Below, in pieces: positions 17,656 to 30,282 of a stretch of DNA of 64,000 bases (the first letter of the stretch is position 1; the number at the start of each line of letters is the position of its first letter). Under the pieces are notes generated by a model that had not been told where the DNA came from, did no database searches, and saw only the letters and a program-made list of their open reading frames with translations. Both the position numbers and the translations under genes were made by a program. The stretch covers positions 124,001 through 188,000 of the forward strand of contig NZ_ML660061.1 of NCBI RefSeq assembly GCF_007004665.1. Direction: 5' to 3'. Source of the stretch: Denitrobaculum tricleocarpae. GTDB lineage: Bacteria > Pseudomonadota > Alphaproteobacteria > Kiloniellales > Kiloniellaceae.

Positions 17656-19386
17656 ATGTTGGGTTCATCCGATCGCACGGCATTAAAGGCGGCGCTTTCC
17701 GAATCGCGGTCGATTTTTGCCGCTGCGGGTTTTTTCAGTCTTTTTATCAATCTCCTGATGCTCGTCGGTCCGCTCTATATGCTGCAGATCTATGATCGGG
17801 TCCTGACCTCGGGCAGCGTCCCGACGCTGGTGTATCTGTCGGTTGCGGCGGTCGGCCTGATCCTGGTGAGTGCGATCCTTGAATTTCTGCGCAGCCGGAT
17901 TCTGGTACGTCTGAACGGCGGGCTTGAACAGCGCCTGACCGAGTCGCTTTTCAGCGGGATCTTCAAGACTCCCCTCGAAGAACAAAACAACTCGACACAG
18001 CCGCTCAGGGACATGGAGACTGTCCGCAGTTTTCTGACCGGCCCCGGCCTTATCACCTTTTTCGACGCGCCCTGGGCGCCGATCTTTCTGGTTTTGATCT
18101 TTGCTCTGCATCCCATTCTGGGGCTCATTTCTCTCACCGGTGCTGTCCTGCTGTTCGGCTTGGCGATTGCCAGCGAGGTTTTTACCCGCAACCTGCTGGT
18201 CAAGGCGTCCCAGAACAGTGGCGCGGCGATGTCTTTCGCCGATAATGCGATCCGTAACCGCGAAGTGATCGAAGCCCTCGGCATGCTCCAGGGGCTGCAG
18301 CGGCGATGGTATCAGCGCTATGCAAGTGGCCAGGCCTCCCAGGCACGGGCGAGTGACCGCTCCGGCTTACTCACCGCCTGCGCCAAGTTCATCCGGCCGC
18401 TGCTCCAGGTCGCGATGCTGGGGGCTGGCGCGGTTCTGGTGCTCAATCTCGAAATCACGGCCGGTGGCATGATCGCCAGTTCCATCATTATGGGCCGGGC
18501 GCTGGCACCGGTTCAGGGCGCGATCAACTCCTGGCGGAACTTCGTTCTCGCGCGCGCGGCACACCGCCGGCTGGCCGAATTTTTTGCCGCCACCGAGACC
18601 GCTGAAACCCAGTCCTCACTGCCGAAACCTCTCGGCGCGGTGTCGGTCGAACGCGTTGTTGCACCGGCGCCCGGCGGCACGGTTCCCGTAATCAAAGGCC
18701 TGTCCTTTTCCGTCGCTCCCGGAGAATGCGTTGGCATTATCGGGCCAAGCGCCGCGGGTAAATCGACGCTCTCGCGGCTTTTGGTCGGGGTCTGGAAACC
18801 AACCAGCGGGCAGGTGCGCCTGGACGGCGCGGATATCGCCAAGTGGAACCACCTTGAACTCGGCCCGCACCTGGGATACCTGCCGCAGGATGTGGAGCTT
18901 TTCGAGGGATCCGTGGCGGAAAACATCTCCCGTTTCGACGATGGCGAGCCTCAGGCCGTGATCGAGGCGGCTAAAAAAGCCGGTGTTCACGAACTGATCC
19001 TGCAGCTGGAAAAGGGTTACGACACCAATATCGGCCCCGGTGGCCGGGTACTTTCCGGCGGACAACGGCAACGCATTGGTCTAGCGCGTGCGCTCTATGG
19101 TGAACCCAGCCTGGTGGTTCTGGACGAGCCCAATTCAAATCTGGATGCGGAGGGCGAAGAGGCCTTGCGGCGGGCCTTGATCGGTTTGAAGGAGCGGGGG
19201 GCAACCTCCATCGTCATTGCCCACCGGCCCTCAGTGCTCTCCGTGGTCGAAAAGCTGTTGGTGCTCAAGGATGGTATGATCGAGCACTTCGGGCCAAAGG
19301 AAGAGGTGCTGCCCAAGGTCACGCGCTCGGTGGCCAACAATAGTCCGAAGCCCGGCCAGGCCGTCGCTGTAGGAGCACAGGGGTAA
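17656..19386 (+). CDS. Type I secretion ABC transporter (PrtD/HasD-type permease-ATPase)
   Basis: This inner-membrane exporter powers one-step secretion of the RTX protein encoded just upstream. The 576 residues comprise a six-helix permease domain (about 25-300) and an ATPase domain (about 330-560) with Walker A GPSAAGKST, signature LSGGQRQRIGLAR and Walker B LVVLDEPNSNLD. It lacks the N-terminal C39-like domain of HlyB, which places it with the PrtD/AprD group that exports proteases and similar RTX proteins. The HlyD-family adaptor starts 4 bases after its stop. The TolC-type outer-membrane partner is not in the window. The start at 17656 has only a weak ribosome site (GCAGG). Confidence 0.95.
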   Translation: MLGSSDRTALKAALSESRSIFAAAGFFSLFINLLMLVGPLYMLQIYDRVLTSGSVPTLVYLSVAAVGLILVSAILEFLRSRILVRLNGGLEQRLTESLFSGIFKTPLEEQNNSTQPLRDMETVRSFLTGPGLITFFDAPWAPIFLVLIFALHPILGLISLTGAVLLFGLAIASEVFTRNLLVKASQNSGAAMSFADNAIRNREVIEALGMLQGLQRRWYQRYASGQASQARASDRSGLLTACAKFIRPLLQVAMLGAGAVLVLNLEITAGGMIASSIIMGRALAPVQGAINSWRNFVLARAAHRRLAEFFAATETAETQSSLPKPLGAVSVERVVAPAPGGTVPVIKGLSFSVAPGECVGIIGPSAAGKSTLSRLLVGVWKPTSGQVRLDGADIAKWNHLELGPHLGYLPQDVELFEGSVAENISRFDDGEPQAVIEAAKKAGVHELILQLEKGYDTNIGPGGRVLSGGQRQRIGLARALYGEPSLVVLDEPNSNLDAEGEEALRRALIGLKERGATSIVIAHRPSVLSVVEKLLVLKDGMIEHFGPKEEVLPKVTRSVANNSPKPGQAVAVGAQG

Positions 19387-19389
19387 CTC

Positions 19390-20709
19390 ATGGCGCAGGG
19401 TTCAAACAACGCGGATATGACCGCCCCAACCAATCCCTGGCCGTCGATTATCGTCGGTTTCATTGTCGTTTTCGGCGCGCTGGGCGGCTTTGGCGCCTGG
19501 TCCGCCCTTGCCAACCTCTCGAGCGCCGTGGTGGCGCAGGGGACAGTCAAGGTCTATTCGAACCGCAAGAAGGTTCAGACGCTCGAAGGCGGCGTCGTCA
19601 CGGAACTCGCGGTCAAGAACGGCGACCGGGTCGAAGTCGGCGACATTCTTGTGACGCTGGACCGCACCCGCGCCGCGGCTTCGCATTCGATCATGCAGAG
19701 CAATTACGACACTTCCCTGGCCGTGGTTGCCAGATTGCGCGCGGAACGCGACGGTCTCGAGAACATCGACTATCCAGAAGGCCTGGCCGAGCGCCTGGAG
19801 GGGACGAGCGTCAGCGAGATCATTTCGGCGCAGGAAAAGCTCTTTTCGGTTCGCCGGGCGGCTTTGAACGGACAGACCGCAATCGTCCGGGAACGGATCG
19901 GGCAGCTCGAGGAAGAGATCCAGGGTCTCAATGCGCAGGTCAGTTCCAAGGACCGTCAGCTCAAGCTGATCGAGGAAGAGCTTTCGGGGCTGCGCGAGCT
20001 CTACAAAAAAGGCTTCACGACCCGGACCCGCATTCTGTCGCTGGAGCGTGAAGCGGCCAGCCTGGGCGGCGAGCGGGGCGAACATCTGGCCGCAATTGCC
20101 CAGTCCAGGCGCCTGATCGGCGAAGCGCAACTTGAGATCGTTCAGGTTCAGAAAACCTTTAACGAAGAGGTCGTCACGGAACTCCAGCAAAAAGAGAGTG
20201 AGCTTTTCGATCTGGAGGAGCGCCTGAACGCGACCAACTATTCGCTGGAGCAGACTCAGATTACCGCGACGGCAAAAGGACTGGTTGTCGGTCTGGCGGT
20301 TCATACAGTCGGCGGCGTGCTGCAGCCTGGCGAGACTCTGCTGGAAATCGTGCCGGAGAATGATCTCCTGATCGTGGAGGCAAAGGTCCTGCCGATCGAT
20401 GTCGACAACATCCAGATCGGTCTGGGAGCAGACGTTCAGTTTACGGCCTTCTCGCAAAGAACCACGCCCAAGCTCCACGGCGACGTGATCTATGTTTCGG
20501 CAGACAGCCTGACCGATCCGGATACGAAGGCGCCATACTTTGCCGCCCGCATTGCGATCCCGGAGGAGGAGGTTGCGCGCCTTGATGACAAAACCCTGCA
20601 GCCGGGCATGCCCGCGGACGTTTTGATTATCACGGGTGACCGCACACCGATGAACTATCTGATCAAGCCGATCAAAGAGAGTATGGATAAGGCCTGGCGG
20701 GAAGATTGA
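19390..20709 (+). CDS. Type I secretion membrane fusion protein (HlyD/PrtE family)
   Basis: The periplasmic adaptor links the ABC exporter to a TolC-type channel. The protein has 439 residues: a short cytosolic N-terminus, one membrane helix (about 20-42), a lipoyl-like half (QGTVKVYSNRKKVQTLEGG), a long alpha-hairpin coiled coil (about 110-300), the second lipoyl half (TQITATAKGLVVGL) and a beta-barrel C-terminus ending with PGMPADVLIITGDRT, a typical PrtE/HlyD ending. It is immediately downstream of the ABC gene and surely co-transcribed. No third component follows; the next gene is the unrelated nasT. Confidence 0.95.
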   Translation: MAQGSNNADMTAPTNPWPSIIVGFIVVFGALGGFGAWSALANLSSAVVAQGTVKVYSNRKKVQTLEGGVVTELAVKNGDRVEVGDILVTLDRTRAAASHSIMQSNYDTSLAVVARLRAERDGLENIDYPEGLAERLEGTSVSEIISAQEKLFSVRRAALNGQTAIVRERIGQLEEEIQGLNAQVSSKDRQLKLIEEELSGLRELYKKGFTTRTRILSLEREAASLGGERGEHLAAIAQSRRLIGEAQLEIVQVQKTFNEEVVTELQQKESELFDLEERLNATNYSLEQTQITATAKGLVVGLAVHTVGGVLQPGETLLEIVPENDLLIVEAKVLPIDVDNIQIGLGADVQFTAFSQRTTPKLHGDVIYVSADSLTDPDTKAPYFAARIAIPEEEVARLDDKTLQPGMPADVLIITGDRTPMNYLIKPIKESMDKAWRED

Positions 20710-20773: not shown

Positions 20774-20950
20774 CGGCCCTGACCGGCTCTGCACCATCTC
20801 CCTCGATTGATTTGCCTCAGAATTTGTCTCGGTAGGATCAAGCGCACGCCCCGGACATCCGCTGCTGACTGCAGGCCCGGACCGCAGTTTCGCCGAATCG
20901 CGCATATTTTTTTGCGTTGCACAATTTTTTCGCATGCGCACAATAATTCG

Positions 20951-21547
20951 ATGTCCAACGCGCAGCTCTCAGTTCTTGTCATCGATGAAAATCGGATACG
21001 GGCTTCCATCATCGAAGCGGGTTTGCGCGATGCCGGCCACGATCAGGTGACGCTGGTAAGTGATGTGCAGGCGGTCGCGCTGCGGATTAGAGATCTTGAG
21101 CCCGATGTGATCGTGATCGACCTTGAAAATCCGAACCGGGACATGCTGGAGAACATGTTTCAGCTCTCGCGCGTGGTCAAAAGGCCGATCGCAATGTTCG
21201 TCGACCGCTCCGATCAGGCCTCCATCGAGGCTGCGGTCGAGGCGGGTGTCTCGGCCTATGTTGTCGATGGCCTGCGGCAGGAGCGGGTCAAACCGATCCT
21301 CGATATGGCGATCAGCCGCTTTAATGCCTTTTCACGGATGGAAAGCGAATTGGATGCGGCGCGCAGCGAGCTTGCGGAACGCAAGGTGATCGAGCGGGCA
21401 AAGGGAATTCTTATGCGAACGAAGTCCATTGATGAACAGGAAGCCTACGCCTTGCTGCGTAAGACCGCCATGAACCAGAATCGGCGCCTATCCGAAATTG
21501 CGCAAAGCCTGGTGACCGCCTCCAGCCTGCTCGATCCGGAGGATTAG
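20951..21547 (+). CDS. nasT: Nitrate-responsive transcription antiterminator NasT (ANTAR)
   Basis: NasT binds paired hairpins in the nas leader RNA and prevents termination when nitrate is present. The 198-residue protein has a receiver-like domain (1-120, VIDENR, VIVIDLEN) and a C-terminal ANTAR domain (about 135-195, with AERKVIERAKGILMRTKSID and QEAYALLRKTAMNQNRRLSEIA). The open frame extends upstream, but ATG 20951 starts exactly at the family N-terminus (MSNAQLSVLVIDENR). nasS begins 3 bases after its stop, as is usual for this sensor pair. A candidate target leader lies at 22966-23085. Confidence 0.94.
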   Translation: MSNAQLSVLVIDENRIRASIIEAGLRDAGHDQVTLVSDVQAVALRIRDLEPDVIVIDLENPNRDMLENMFQLSRVVKRPIAMFVDRSDQASIEAAVEAGVSAYVVDGLRQERVKPILDMAISRFNAFSRMESELDAARSELAERKVIERAKGILMRTKSIDEQEAYALLRKTAMNQNRRLSEIAQSLVTASSLLDPED

Positions 21548-21550
21548 TCT

Positions 21551-22780
21551 GTGCCCGCACCCCATTTGCACGAGATCCGCGCTGGTTTCCTGCCCCTCCT
21601 GGACTCCGCCATTCTGGTCGCGGCACGGGAAAAGGCTTTTGCCGAGGACGAGGCAATCAACCTGACGCTGATCCGCGAAAACTCCTGGGCGAACATCCGG
21701 GACCGCATGGCGGTCGGGCACTTTCAAATCGCGCATATGCTGGGCCCCATGCCGATTGCCGCGCGCTTGGGTCTGACACCCCTGCAGCTTGATGTCATCG
21801 CACCCATGGCTCTCGGTCTGGGCGGCAACGCGGTGACGATTTCCGTGGATCTCGCCGAGGCAATGGCTGGTCATGGGGGCCTTTCGGGCCTTCATGCCGC
21901 GGTAAGCGTGGAGCGTTTGGCGCAGGTTGTCAGGGACCGCAAATCGGGACATCGACCGCCGTTGAGTTTTGCCGTGGTGCACCCCTTTTCGGCACACAAC
22001 TACGATCTGCGTTACTGGCTCGCAGCGGGCGGCATCGATCCGGAGCAGGATGTGCAGATTGTCATCGTTCCGCCTCCGCTCATGGCTGACGCGCTTAAAT
22101 CCGGTCAAATCGACGGGTTTTGTGTCGGTGAGCCCTGGAACAGTCTTGCGGTATCGTTGGGTGCCGGTGTCATTGCGACGACCAAGTCGGCGATCTGGCG
22201 TTCGAGTCCCGAAAAGGTCCTCGCCGTCTCTTCAAGCCTCGAAGTTGAGGAGCCGGATCTATTGGCGGCTATCCTGCGCGCCCTCTATCGTTCCGCCGAA
22301 TGGTGCGGTCATGCGGATCATCACGAAGAACTCGCGGCTCTCCTGGCGCGCCCTGAATATGTTGGTCTGGATCAAAAGCTCCTCCTGCCGGCCTTACAGG
22401 GCAGGCTGCGACACCGGGGCGGTGATGTTGCGAAGGTTCAGGACTTTTTTGTTCCCTTCGACAAAGCCGCCACCTTTCCCTGGCAGAGCCACGCGCTTTG
22501 GTTTTACAGCCAGATGGTGCGTTGGGGGCATGCGACCTGGAACCTCGAGGACGCTCAAGGTGCGGCACAAGTCTATCGCCCGGACCTCTATCGTGCCGCG
22601 GTTTCCCCCCTGGGCGCGGCGGTTCCCGCGGCCAATTCAAAAGTCGAGGGCGCGCTGCAGACACCCACCCATGTCGGGTCGTCCGAGGGCAGCCTGATCC
22701 TGGGGCCCGACGGCTTCTTCGATGACAGGATTTTCGATCCGGAGCAGGTCGAAGCCTATGTGAAGGAGCAACAGGTGTGA
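21551..22780 (+). CDS. nasS: Nitrate sensor NasS (NrtA-like periplasmic-binding fold, cytoplasmic)
   Basis: NasS holds NasT inactive until it binds nitrate or nitrite. It is a 409-residue CmpA/NrtA-family binding protein that lacks a signal peptide, which fits a cytoplasmic sensor rather than a transporter component. It shares blocks with NrtA, such as [15 protein letters not shown] and DGFCVGEPWNS. The start is GTG 21551, three bases after nasT, and no RBS-separated alternative is better. Position next to nasT and upstream of nrtA supports the call over a transport role. Confidence 0.9.
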   Translation: MPAPHLHEIRAGFLPLLDSAILVAAREKAFAEDEAINLTLIRENSWANIRDRMAVGHFQIAHMLGPMPIAARLGLTPLQLDVIAPMALGLGGNAVTISVDLAEAMAGHGGLSGLHAAVSVERLAQVVRDRKSGHRPPLSFAVVHPFSAHNYDLRYWLAAGGIDPEQDVQIVIVPPPLMADALKSGQIDGFCVGEPWNSLAVSLGAGVIATTKSAIWRSSPEKVLAVSSSLEVEEPDLLAAILRALYRSAEWCGHADHHEELAALLARPEYVGLDQKLLLPALQGRLRHRGGDVAKVQDFFVPFDKAATFPWQSHALWFYSQMVRWGHATWNLEDAQGAAQVYRPDLYRAAVSPLGAAVPAANSKVEGALQTPTHVGSSEGSLILGPDGFFDDRIFDPEQVEAYVKEQQV

Positions 22781-22812: not shown

Positions 22813-22849
22813 TGCACAAAAAATGATCAGAGCGACTTCCTCTTGTGCA
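22813..22849. promoter_or_regulatory. Candidate NtrC-type enhancer half-sites
   Basis: A perfect inverted pair TGCACAA (22813-22819) and TTGTGCA (22843-22849) lies about 115-150 bases ahead of the predicted nitrate-operon start. TGCAC resembles the NtrC half-site. The spacing is wider than in the classical dyad, so these could be two separate half-sites or unrelated. Confidence 0.3.
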
Positions 22850-22937: not shown

Positions 22938-22953
22938 TGGCACGGATCCTGCT
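22938..22953 (+). promoter_or_regulatory. Sigma-54 (RpoN) promoter of the nitrate operon
   Basis: TGGCACG-GATC-CTGCT matches the -24/-12 consensus with one deviation (C for the first T of TTGC). The GG (22939-22940) and GC (22951-22952) are 10 bases apart, as required. Transcription would start near 22964, directly in front of the leader hairpins. This implies nitrogen control through NtrC and RpoN. Confidence 0.7.
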
Positions 22954-22965
22954 GAGGTAACTCCA

Positions 22966-23085
22966 GTTCCCCACGAAGGAACATAGATTTCGCGTCCAAC
23001 GACGGGCGCATCAGGCAAAGCCGCCGAACTGGTCTCGTATTCCCACTCCTCCCGGGATGCGCCGACTGGTTTGGCGGTTTTTTTT
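22966..23085 (+). ncRNA. ANTAR-type nitrate leader RNA with terminator
   Basis: Hairpin 1 (22966-22982) has the stem GTTCC/GGAAC and a 7-base loop. Hairpin 2 (22992-23009) has the stem GCGTCC/GGGCGC and the hexaloop AACGAC, with A at loop position 1 and G at position 4 as in ANTAR target RNAs. They are 9 bases apart. A terminator stem AAAGCCGCC/GGCGGTTTT (23017-23025 with 23073-23081) then leads into a T8 run (23078-23085). The 3' arm of hairpin 2 plus ATC (23005-23012) can instead pair perfectly with GATGCGCC (23056-23063), giving an alternative fold. NasT is the presumed ligand. Hairpin 1 departs from the strict hexaloop rule. Confidence 0.7.
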
Positions 23086-23139: not shown

Positions 23140-24537
23140 ATGCTTCCAAAGACCAGAAAACTAAGAGCGCTTTTAACGGCGGGCTTGACCGCCTTTACCG
23201 CTGCGGCGACAGCCTTGCCCGCCATGGCCGAAATGCTCGACGTCGAAAAGGATGAACTCAAACTCGGCTTTATCAAGCTGACCGATATGGCGCCCCTGGC
23301 GATTGCGTATGAAAAAGGCTTCTTCGAGGACGAAGGTCTGTTTGTCACCCTGGAACCGCAGGCCAACTGGAAGGTTCTTCTGGACCGGGTGATCACCGGC
23401 GAACTCGATGGTGCGCATATGCTGGCTGGTCAGCCGCTGGCCGCGACGATCGGCTTTGGGACCAAGGCGCATATCGTGACGCCTTTCTCCATGGACTTGA
23501 ACGGCAACGGCATCACCGTCTCCAACGAAGTCTGGGCGATGATGAAGGAACACATTCCCCATGAAGACGGCAAGCCGGTGCATCCTATCAAGGCGGATGC
23601 CCTGAAACCGGTTGTCGAGCAGTTCAAATCGGAGGGTAAGTCCTTCAACATGGGCATGGTCTTTCCGGTCTCCACTCATAACTACGAGCTGCGGTACTGG
23701 CTGGCTGCCGGGGACATTCATCCCGGGTTCTATTCGACAACGGATGTGTCCGGACAGATCATGGCCGAAGCCCTTTTGTCCGTGACGCCGCCGCCGCAGA
23801 TGCCTTCCACTCTGGAAGCCGGAACGATCCACGGTTACTGCGTGGGCGAGCCCTGGAATCAGCAGGCGGTGTTCAAAGGGATCGGGGTTCCGGTCATCAC
23901 CGATTACCAGATCTGGAAAAACAATCCCGAGAAGGTTTTCGGCCTCACCAAAACCTTTACCGAAACGAATCCCAACACCACGCTTGCCTTGACCAAGGCT
24001 CTGATCCGCGCGGCGCAGTGGCTCGACGAAAACGACAATGCCAACCGCGCAGAAGCGGTCGAGATTCTGGCGCGGTCGGAGTATGTGGGCGCCGATGCGG
24101 AAGTCATCGCCAACTCCATGACCGGAACCTTCGAGTACGAAAAGGGCGACAAGCGCGCGGTACCGGACTTCAACGTGTTCTTCCGTTACTACGCGACCTA
24201 TCCCTACTACTCCGATGCCATCTGGTATCTCACGCAGATGCGCCGCTGGGGTCAGATCGCAGAACACAAGGACGATGCCTGGTATGACGAGACGGCGAAG
24301 TCCGTTTATCTGCCGGACATCTACCTGAAGGCCGCGCGCATGCTGGTCGACGAGGGTTACGTGAGCGAAACCGACTTCCCGTGGGAGAGCGATGGCTACC
24401 GCGCACCGACCCCTGCCGCCGACATCATCGACGGCATTCCCTACGACGGAACCAAGCCTAACGCCTATATCGACTCTCTTTCGATCGGCTTGAAGTCCAA
24501 GCAGGTGGTGGCCGGGAACAAGCTTGTCGGCGGCTGA
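23140..24537 (+). CDS. nrtA: Nitrate ABC transporter substrate-binding protein
   Basis: The periplasmic nitrate/nitrite-binding component, of the CmpA/NrtA family. The ATG at 23140 follows a clear ribosome site (AGGAGATGAG) and opens a 465-residue protein with a Sec signal peptide ending ALPAMA (about residues 1-29). An upstream in-frame extension to 23071 would run back into the terminator T run and is rejected. Family blocks include [19 protein letters not shown] and [13 protein letters not shown]. It is transcribed behind the leader at 22966-23085. A stable hairpin separates it from nrtB, probably keeping binding protein in excess. Confidence 0.94.
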
Positions 24538-29938: not shown

Positions 29939-30282
29939 GTGCGGTGTTTGATGGCTGGGTTAAAGTCGGCAAGCTCGGCGATGTGCCACGCCGTGGCGCG
30001 CGCTGTATCAAGAGCGGCGATGTGACGATCGCGATTTTCCGGACGGCCGATGACCGTGTCTTTGCCCTGGAAGACCGCTGTCCGCACAAGAATGGTCCGC
30101 TCAGTCAGGGGATCGTCCATGACGGCTGTGTGACCTGTCCTTTGCACAACTGGGTGATCTCTCTCGAAAATGGTGAAGCCCAGGGGGCAGACAGCGGACG
30201 CTCCGCAAGCTTCAAAGTGAAACTCAAGGGGGATGACATTCTTCTGGATTTGAAGGACGTGCATCGGGCAGGACGACGCTGA
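29935..30282 (+). CDS. nirD: NAD(P)H nitrite reductase, small (Rieske) subunit
   Basis: A 115-residue Rieske-like partner of NirB. Unlike many NirD proteins, which have lost the cluster ligands, this one retains both motifs: CPHKNGPLSQG and CPLHNW. It may therefore bind a [2Fe-2S] cluster. It overlaps nirB by 4 bases and its stop overlaps the nasA ATG (TGATG), so three genes are translationally linked. Confidence 0.93.
   Translation: MSAVFDGWVKVGKLGDVPRRGARCIKSGDVTIAIFRTADDRVFALEDRCPHKNGPLSQGIVHDGCVTCPLHNWVISLENGEAQGADSGRSASFKVKLKGDDILLDLKDVHRAGRR

Follow-up and report, generated by a model that had tools for sequence, protein, structure and literature searches.

Genes and leader features of the nrtA locus

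The window, by which we mean the whole 64-kb stretch of DNA that was analyzed, carries a nasT–nasS gene pair followed on the same strand by nrtA and further genes:

20951–21547, + strand: nasT, an ANTAR-domain, response-regulator-like antiterminator (PF03861, 72.8 bits; receiver PF00072, 35.5 bits)
21551–22780, + strand: nasS, binding-protein-like, NMT1_2 family (PF13379, 225.8 bits)
23140–24537, + strand: nrtA, binding protein of a nitrate ABC transporter; the presumed operon starts with this gene
3′ of nrtA, + strand: nrtB (24623), nrtCD (25713), nirB (27476), a nitrate reductase-like gene (30282) and cysG (32926)

The profile matches place nasT and nasS directly upstream of the leader, as an initial annotation of this sequence had stated. 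The two genes adjoin, and the domains of both are those of a NasS–NasT system; from gene order and homology to NasS (PMC3795266), the nasS product is presumed to be the nitrate/nitrite sensor partner of NasT. A cognate ANTAR protein is thus encoded here, and nasT is the single ANTAR (PF03861) match across the genome. The nearest named loci come from uncultured Kiloniellaceae, with NasT proteins 99% and 90% identical. The gene at 30282 is of the molybdopterin nitrate-reductase-like kind, and gene order and strand suggest that nrtA to cysG form one transcript. Just 5′ of nasT, on the same strand, lies a gene pair (17656–20709) that we labeled by eye as a type I secretion-like ABC transporter and membrane-fusion protein.

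The leader occupies the gap between the nasS stop (22780) and the nrtA start (23140), and its features are as follows:

22813–22829, + strand: NtrC-like site TGCACAAAAAATGATCA, 125 bp before the −24 element, an 8/10 match to TGCAC-N7-GTGCA
22938–22953, + strand: sigma-54 −24/−12 element TGGCACGGATCCTGCT, GG at 22939–22940 and GC at 22951–22952, 10 bases between them
22966–22982, + strand: 5′ hairpin GUUCC-CCACGAA-GGAAC, located at the predicted start of the RNA; its loop is not of the ANTAR type
22992–23009, + strand: ANTAR hairpin P1, GCGUCC-AACGAC-GGGCGC, loop A1 at 22998 and G4 at 23001
23014–23025, + strand: ANTAR hairpin P2 (antiterminator), GGC-AAAGCC-GCC, loop A1 at 23017 and G4 at 23020
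23017–23085, + strand: intrinsic terminator, stem 23017–23034/23064–23081 with an inner hairpin, U8 run at 23078–23085

The ANTAR motif is described as two hairpins of at least 3 bp whose hexaloops carry A at position 1 and G at position 4 (PMC3369931), the second hairpin overlapping the proximal arm of a terminator (PMC3369936). P1 and P2 agree with this published definition in their stems (at least 3 bp), in A1 and G4 of both loops and in the overlap of P2 with the terminator: bases 23017–23025 are common to P2 and the terminator 5′ arm, where by prediction they form the foot of the stem beside the U-run. The initial annotation had reported two small hairpins after the predicted start, the second with an AACGAC loop bearing A1 and G4, and we recovered both, at 22966–22982 and 22992–23009. 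It had also taken the two to be the paired ANTAR hairpins of a NasT-type leader. The kind of leader and the second hairpin hold, but the first hairpin, with a 7-nt loop (CCACGAA) that has neither A1 nor G4, does not belong to the pair, which consists of the second hairpin and a third that had gone unlisted (P2, loop AAAGCC, 23014–23025) inside the terminator 5′ arm.

The linker between P1 and P2 is 4 nt long (AUCA, 23010–23013), inside the range of 2 to 25 nt applied for actinobacteria (PMC8164766); in eutP, a linker cut to 3 nt is reported to have harmed induction (PMC3369931). The P2 stem has just 3 base pairs. The terminator with its run of eight T (23078–23085), also listed initially, follows a long stem, and the predicted transcript folds at −55.1 kcal/mol compared with −37.3 kcal/mol for shuffles (z = −4.8; 0 of 200 as stable). 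When the transcript is ended at 23026, its minimum-energy fold consists of P1, P2 and the 5′ hairpin, and in the complete leader the terminator is favored by 13.7 kcal/mol over forced P1 and P2. P1 and P2 would therefore fold first and the terminator win later; in the interval a NasT dimer could hold P2 and so keep the terminator foot open.

Recurrence and conservation of the leader beside nasT

Apart from A1 and G4, our scan for this structure used no sequence. It asked for a P1 with 5 or more base pairs, a P2 with 3 or more, and a terminator whose stem has 9 or more base pairs, starts inside P2 and ends at TTTT. On both strands of the 64-kb window, the scan found one place, the nrtA leader. 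On the NasT strand it matched 79 of the 80 NasT loci from named records, and on the opposite strand none of them, though these loci are mostly Mesorhizobium and hence not independent; the one miss, L076, is a contig end. More diverse loci were drawn from other alphaproteobacterial genomes (59 NasT matches minus that of the own genome and a partial match in G313, leaving 57), and 22 of these 57 matched (18 of them on the strand of nasT and 4 on the opposite one) versus 0 of 570 dinucleotide-shuffled strands; the remaining 35 gave no match under the scan criteria. One match was found among 86 strands of other loci. This locus (L031, position 1852), picked by an ANTAR-domain match, comes from a member of the same taxonomic family (G004) and shows an ANTAR-type P1/P2/terminator leader of different sequence. 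Four NasT loci (L220, L224, L225 and L231) have leaders with three ANNGNN hairpins in a row.

For closer comparison, 83 entries (the 80 loci, L034, L035 and the window) yielded 78 close leaders with a P1. Left out were L076, with no usable nasS end, and L071, L100, L034 and L035, with no P1 within 900 bases of nasS; in L071 and L100 the leader is present further downstream of nasS. The P2 pattern, with loop AAAGCY or AAGGCY, occurred in 77 of the 78 leaders having a pattern-found P1. L034, from a relative in the same family, has in place of the window-type cassette a sigma-70-like, TTGACA-like element by eye, and about 130–300 bases after nasS a hairpin CGAGC-ACAGCC-GCTCG (ANNGNN) that overlaps a terminator. 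Chelatococcus sambhunathii (L044, position 7049) has the cassette twice; the second, which has a sigma-54-like element of its own, lies about 3.6 kb downstream of the first.

A search of 385 genomes gave a leader match at E up to 0.1 in 42; among 30 loci from this search, the own genome included, nine were judged by eye to be further leaders and the rest chance or doubtful. A search of the own genome for further NasT leaders yielded none that we accepted: among seven matches to model R1 at E up to 10, one was strong (52.8 bits), and the next (L150; 27.6 bits, E = 0.03), judged by reading its sequence, has TTTT 105 bases on.

Covariation in the first two stems had been put forward initially as a check, and it came out in part. 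We aligned the 48 less similar of the 76 leaders with a sigma-54 core (alignment A2). In this alignment the stem of the 5′ hairpin covaries, with 4 of 5 pairs changing on both sides, and the second stem, P1, hardly varies: one of its 6 pairs has a two-sided change and P2 has none, so that the alignment, with P1 and P2 nearly invariant, says little on their covariation. The whole structure is paired in 93.9% of cells in the 48 leaders versus 41 to 52% when slid. In distant leaders, P1 stems of differing sequence still pair (GTGCCC/GGGCAC, GGGTCC/GGACCC, GGTAATC/GATTACC), these leaders having been partly selected for pairing.

The 5′ hairpin is itself a regular feature. A stem of at least 4 bp is present in 74 of 76 close leaders, the window included, with loops of 3 to 7 nt, and in all 74 it begins 15–17 nt after the G of the −12 GC, which would put its start near +3. 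Its cells are paired in 83.3% of cases, with the outermost pair unpaired in 21 of the 48 leaders. An A1/G4 hexaloop appears in it in one of 76 close leaders by folding and in two by pattern, and the hairpin and the terminator have no base in common. It is most likely a 5′-end structure or a degenerate third hairpin, outside the ANTAR pair. We also considered a closing helix (CCAGUUC 22963–22969 with GAACUGG 23026–23032), a perfect 7 bp that would enclose P1 and P2 and displace the 5′ hairpin, and that is present in the fold of the window from 23032 on. It is not conserved: p < 0.05 was reached in 1 of 48 leaders, the window itself, for which reason we take it as chance, and at least 4 such pairs folded in 6 of 48.

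The promoter element TGGCACGGATCCTGCT is the sole exact match to TGGCACGN5TGCW in the window; its GG and GC are spaced 10 bases apart, as first described, and it is TGGCAC/TTGC-like, with CTGC in the window versus TTGC in the consensus. The transcript start is predicted at about 22963–22964. A GG-N10-GC with 10 or 11 of 12 consensus positions was found in 76 of the 78 close leaders, the window among them, and the two exceptions, L087 and L101, are without a sigma-54 match of 9/12 or better. An upstream match of 9/12 or better is present in 14 of the 22 diverse leaders and missing from 8. In L087 (position 8008) and L101 (position 8002), P1, P2 and the terminator are the same, the sigma-54 element is not good and the gene behind is by eye a NarK-like transporter; promoter and antiterminator would thus be separable.

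NtrC-like sites were scored against TGCAC-N7-GTGCA, which we take to be the NtrC consensus. Within 220 bp upstream, a site of at least 8/10 was found in 46 of 48 leaders versus about 7% of single-base shuffles, and a site of 9 or 10 of 10 in 29 of 48 versus about 0.5%; in the 13 of the 48 leaders printed, the best site lies at −124 to −127 relative to the −24 element. The genome encodes one RpoN match (424 bits) and one NtrC match above the curated cut-off (716 bits). Taken together, these sequence features suggest that the predicted promoter may be controlled by NtrC.

Resemblance to the Rfam families narK RNA and P11

A covariance-model search against Rfam, another check proposed at the outset, did not bear out an Rfam assignment, as no family reaches its gathering score in the window or in 12 further loci, and P11 was not found in the own genome. 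The window scores 16.8 bits against narK RNA (RF03032; gathering 43.2) and 14.2 bits against P11 (RF00625; gathering 70). The consensus line of narK RNA starts with GGCaCAgcucUUGCU and that of P11 contains UUGGCACAagcaCUGC, each corresponding to the −24/−12 element. Both also carry an ANNGNN hairpin and GACAAAG(A/G)CGUC, with P1 alone paired in the Rfam narK model. The two families resemble the window because their consensus has a −24/−12 element, an ANNGNN hairpin and P2-type sequence.

We counted the strong loci of each family (22 for narK RNA; 14 for P11, L272–L285), leaving weak ones uncounted; of 36 narK rows, six are without a locus. A sigma-54 core of at least 9/12 was present in 21 of 22 strong narK loci and 14 of 14 strong P11 loci, and tandem ANNGNN hairpins in 13 of 22 and 13 of 14, respectively, of which 13 and 12 overlap a terminator. 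Inspected by eye, the nine narK loci that missed show either a mismatch in one of the two stems, P1 or P2, or a G as the first loop base. Upstream of P2, nine of the 14 strong P11 loci carry two ANNGNN hairpins, which with P2 makes three; four carry one and one carries none. None of 1400 shuffles had two or more there.

The last 14 bases of 33 narK matches (L116–L119 and L243–L271; 20 distinct sequences), which the Rfam model marks as unpaired, served as a blind test of P2. A1 was present in 18 of 20 and G4 in 20 of 20 distinct sequences. Pairing was found in 59 of 60 cells, yet shuffles average 58.1 (204 of 2000 as high), the columns being too uniform. The sole informative pair is the middle one, A-U in narK versus G-C in the window-type P2.

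A NasT-like ANTAR match was found in 21 of 21 sampled genomes with a narK match versus 14 of 57 without, the latter hand-picked at steps with P11-match genomes left out and presumably members of the 398 searched; 13 of all 78 sampled genomes fall short of the quality class of at least 90% completeness and at most 5% contamination. In the 21 narK genomes, 20 of the NasT-like matches are near full length and one (G587) covers the ANTAR part only, and with coordinates read by hand, the narK match lies within 1.4 kb of the NasT-like match in 19 of 21. The narK RNA family is thereby tied to a known regulator, NasT. No paper in the literature searched names the narK RNA family; the link may nevertheless be in print elsewhere.

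The study of Marogi et al. (2024) reportedly ties P11 to nitrate sensors, and the link of P11 to nitrate sensing is therefore probably already known. P11 is described, with citation of that study, as a regulator of a nitrogen assimilation operon (PMC12080996), and inherited avoidance of pathogens in C. elegans is reportedly driven by this small RNA (PMC12080996), a claim that has been disputed (PMC11942167). Judging by the name of the family, its carriers would be Pseudomonas-like. As their consensus lines show, the Rfam models narK and P11 both list sigma-54 promoter sequence as part of an RNA, and since promoter and leader both lie inside the Rfam P11 stretch, this may bear on how a P11 deletion is read.

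A proposed double switch and its relation to known systems

We propose that the leader is, with high probability, a promoter-plus-leader double switch for nitrate assimilation whose NasT target is P1 and P2. Under nitrogen shortage, phosphorylated NtrC near 22813 would activate RpoN-polymerase at 22938–22953, and the transcript would begin near 22964. Without nitrate, its predicted fold suggests that the terminator (23017–23085) would form and transcription stop. With nitrate, NasS would let go of NasT, as reported for the Paracoccus proteins (PMC3795266), and a NasT dimer would bind the A1/G4 loops of P1 and P2 as they emerge. Holding P2 closed would keep 23017–23025 from the terminator stem, and with the foot of the terminator unavailable, RNA polymerase would continue into nrtA and the genes behind it. 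The geometry and energies were computed; NasT binding, the release of NasT by nitrate and read-through are inferred. Joint control by nitrogen shortage and nitrate, as first suggested, fits an NtrC-like site conserved in place and the presence of rpoN and ntrC in the genome, and the arrangement may act as an AND-gate that requires both signals.

NasT might instead act as an oligomer larger than a dimer that contacts all three hairpins, the 5′ hairpin loosely. L220, L224, L225 and L231, like 9 of 14 strong P11 members, have three ANNGNN hairpins in succession, which gives this reading some substance, but the loop signature is missing at the place of the 5′ hairpin, both in the window and in 74 or 75 of the 76 close leaders, and we consider the reading unlikely here. 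Binding to the 5′ hairpin (22966–22982) and the AACGAC hairpin (22992–23009), with termination blocked from there, appears very unlikely. What one would cite for it is that the 5′ hairpin covaries and keeps its position, and that 9 of 14 strong P11 members place two ANNGNN hairpins before P2; against it stand the CCACGAA loop, with A1/G4 at this place in just 1 or 2 of 76 close leaders, the lack of any base shared between this hairpin and the terminator, and the report that A1 or G4 changes in either loop of eutP weakened EutV binding (PMC3369931).

Two further readings concern the promoter and the control by NasT. That antitermination is real and a sigma-70 promoter initiates, the −24/−12 match being fortuitous, is suggested by the lack of a match of at least 9/12 in 8 of 22 diverse leaders and in L087 and L101, and by the TTGACA-like element seen by eye in L034. 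The exact match in the window, the similar element in 76 of 78 close leaders, its constant distance from the 5′ hairpin in 74 of 76 and the NtrC-like site at a fixed distance make this highly improbable. A constitutive attenuator or plain nasTS terminator without NasT control, though the terminator does fold strongly alone, is scarcely credible given that both A1/G4 loops and the terminator overlap recur beside nasT far above shuffles.

Beyond the double switch acting through P1 and P2, we tentatively suggest that NtrC site, sigma-54 element, 5′ hairpin, P1, P2 and terminator may form one conserved cassette of fixed geometry that extends beyond the class of the host and includes narK RNA and P11. 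The 5′ hairpin, fixed near +3, could then have a function as third element: in many P11 leaders it would be a genuine target of NasT, and here it would have diverged to a structural role, with three-loop and two-loop NasT switches coexisting. P11 and narK RNA have the same order as the window (sigma-54-like element, ANNGNN hairpins, P2 of the GAC-AAAG(A/G)C-GUC type and, in those passing the scan, terminator overlap), and P11 differs in having three ANNGNN hairpins in 9 of 14 strong members where the window has two.

The kind of control is already known, nitrogen-status control with nitrate antitermination being in print for Klebsiella and Azotobacter. The nas operon of Klebsiella oxytoca responds to low nitrogen via NtrA (sigma-54), NtrB and NtrC and to nitrate via an ANTAR antiterminator (PMC5424462), and in its nasF leader both the P1 and the P2 loop carry A1 and G4, while P2 shares bases with the terminator (PMC3369936). 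Likened by description, it shares the two signals and the P1/P2 design with the window and differs in its one-protein sensor, NasR, where the window has NasS–NasT. Azotobacter vinelandii nasAB, described as co-regulated by NtrBC and NasST (PMC5424462), shares by description both the pair of signals and the pair of proteins. The eut leaders of Enterococcus faecalis follow the same dual-hairpin ANTAR antiterminator logic (PMC3369931); EutV, unlike the system of the window, answers to ethanolamine and is driven by phosphorylation. NasT leaders are in print for Paracoccus and Bradyrhizobium, and Pseudomonas putida genes have been listed as putatively NasT-regulated. To this the present analysis adds the assignment of the hairpins, a geometry that stays fixed all the way from the NtrC-like site to the terminator, and the narK RNA link. 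The corrected assignment for NasT in such leaders matters in that the hairpins NasT should bind determine which mutants are worth making.

In Paracoccus denitrificans, NasT binds the nasA leader RNA (PMC3795266), and as in the window, nasT–nasS lies directly 5′ of a hairpin-bearing leader. NtrBC is involved there too, with an NtrC site identified at nasT and the nasA site called as yet unidentified in that account (PMC5424462), whereas in the window the sigma-54 element and NtrC-like site stand directly before the leader. The window has a second NtrC-like sequence, TGCACAATTTTTTCGCA (8/10; 20918–20934), which begins 33 bp before the nasT start and recalls the NtrC site reported before Paracoccus nasT (PMC5424462).
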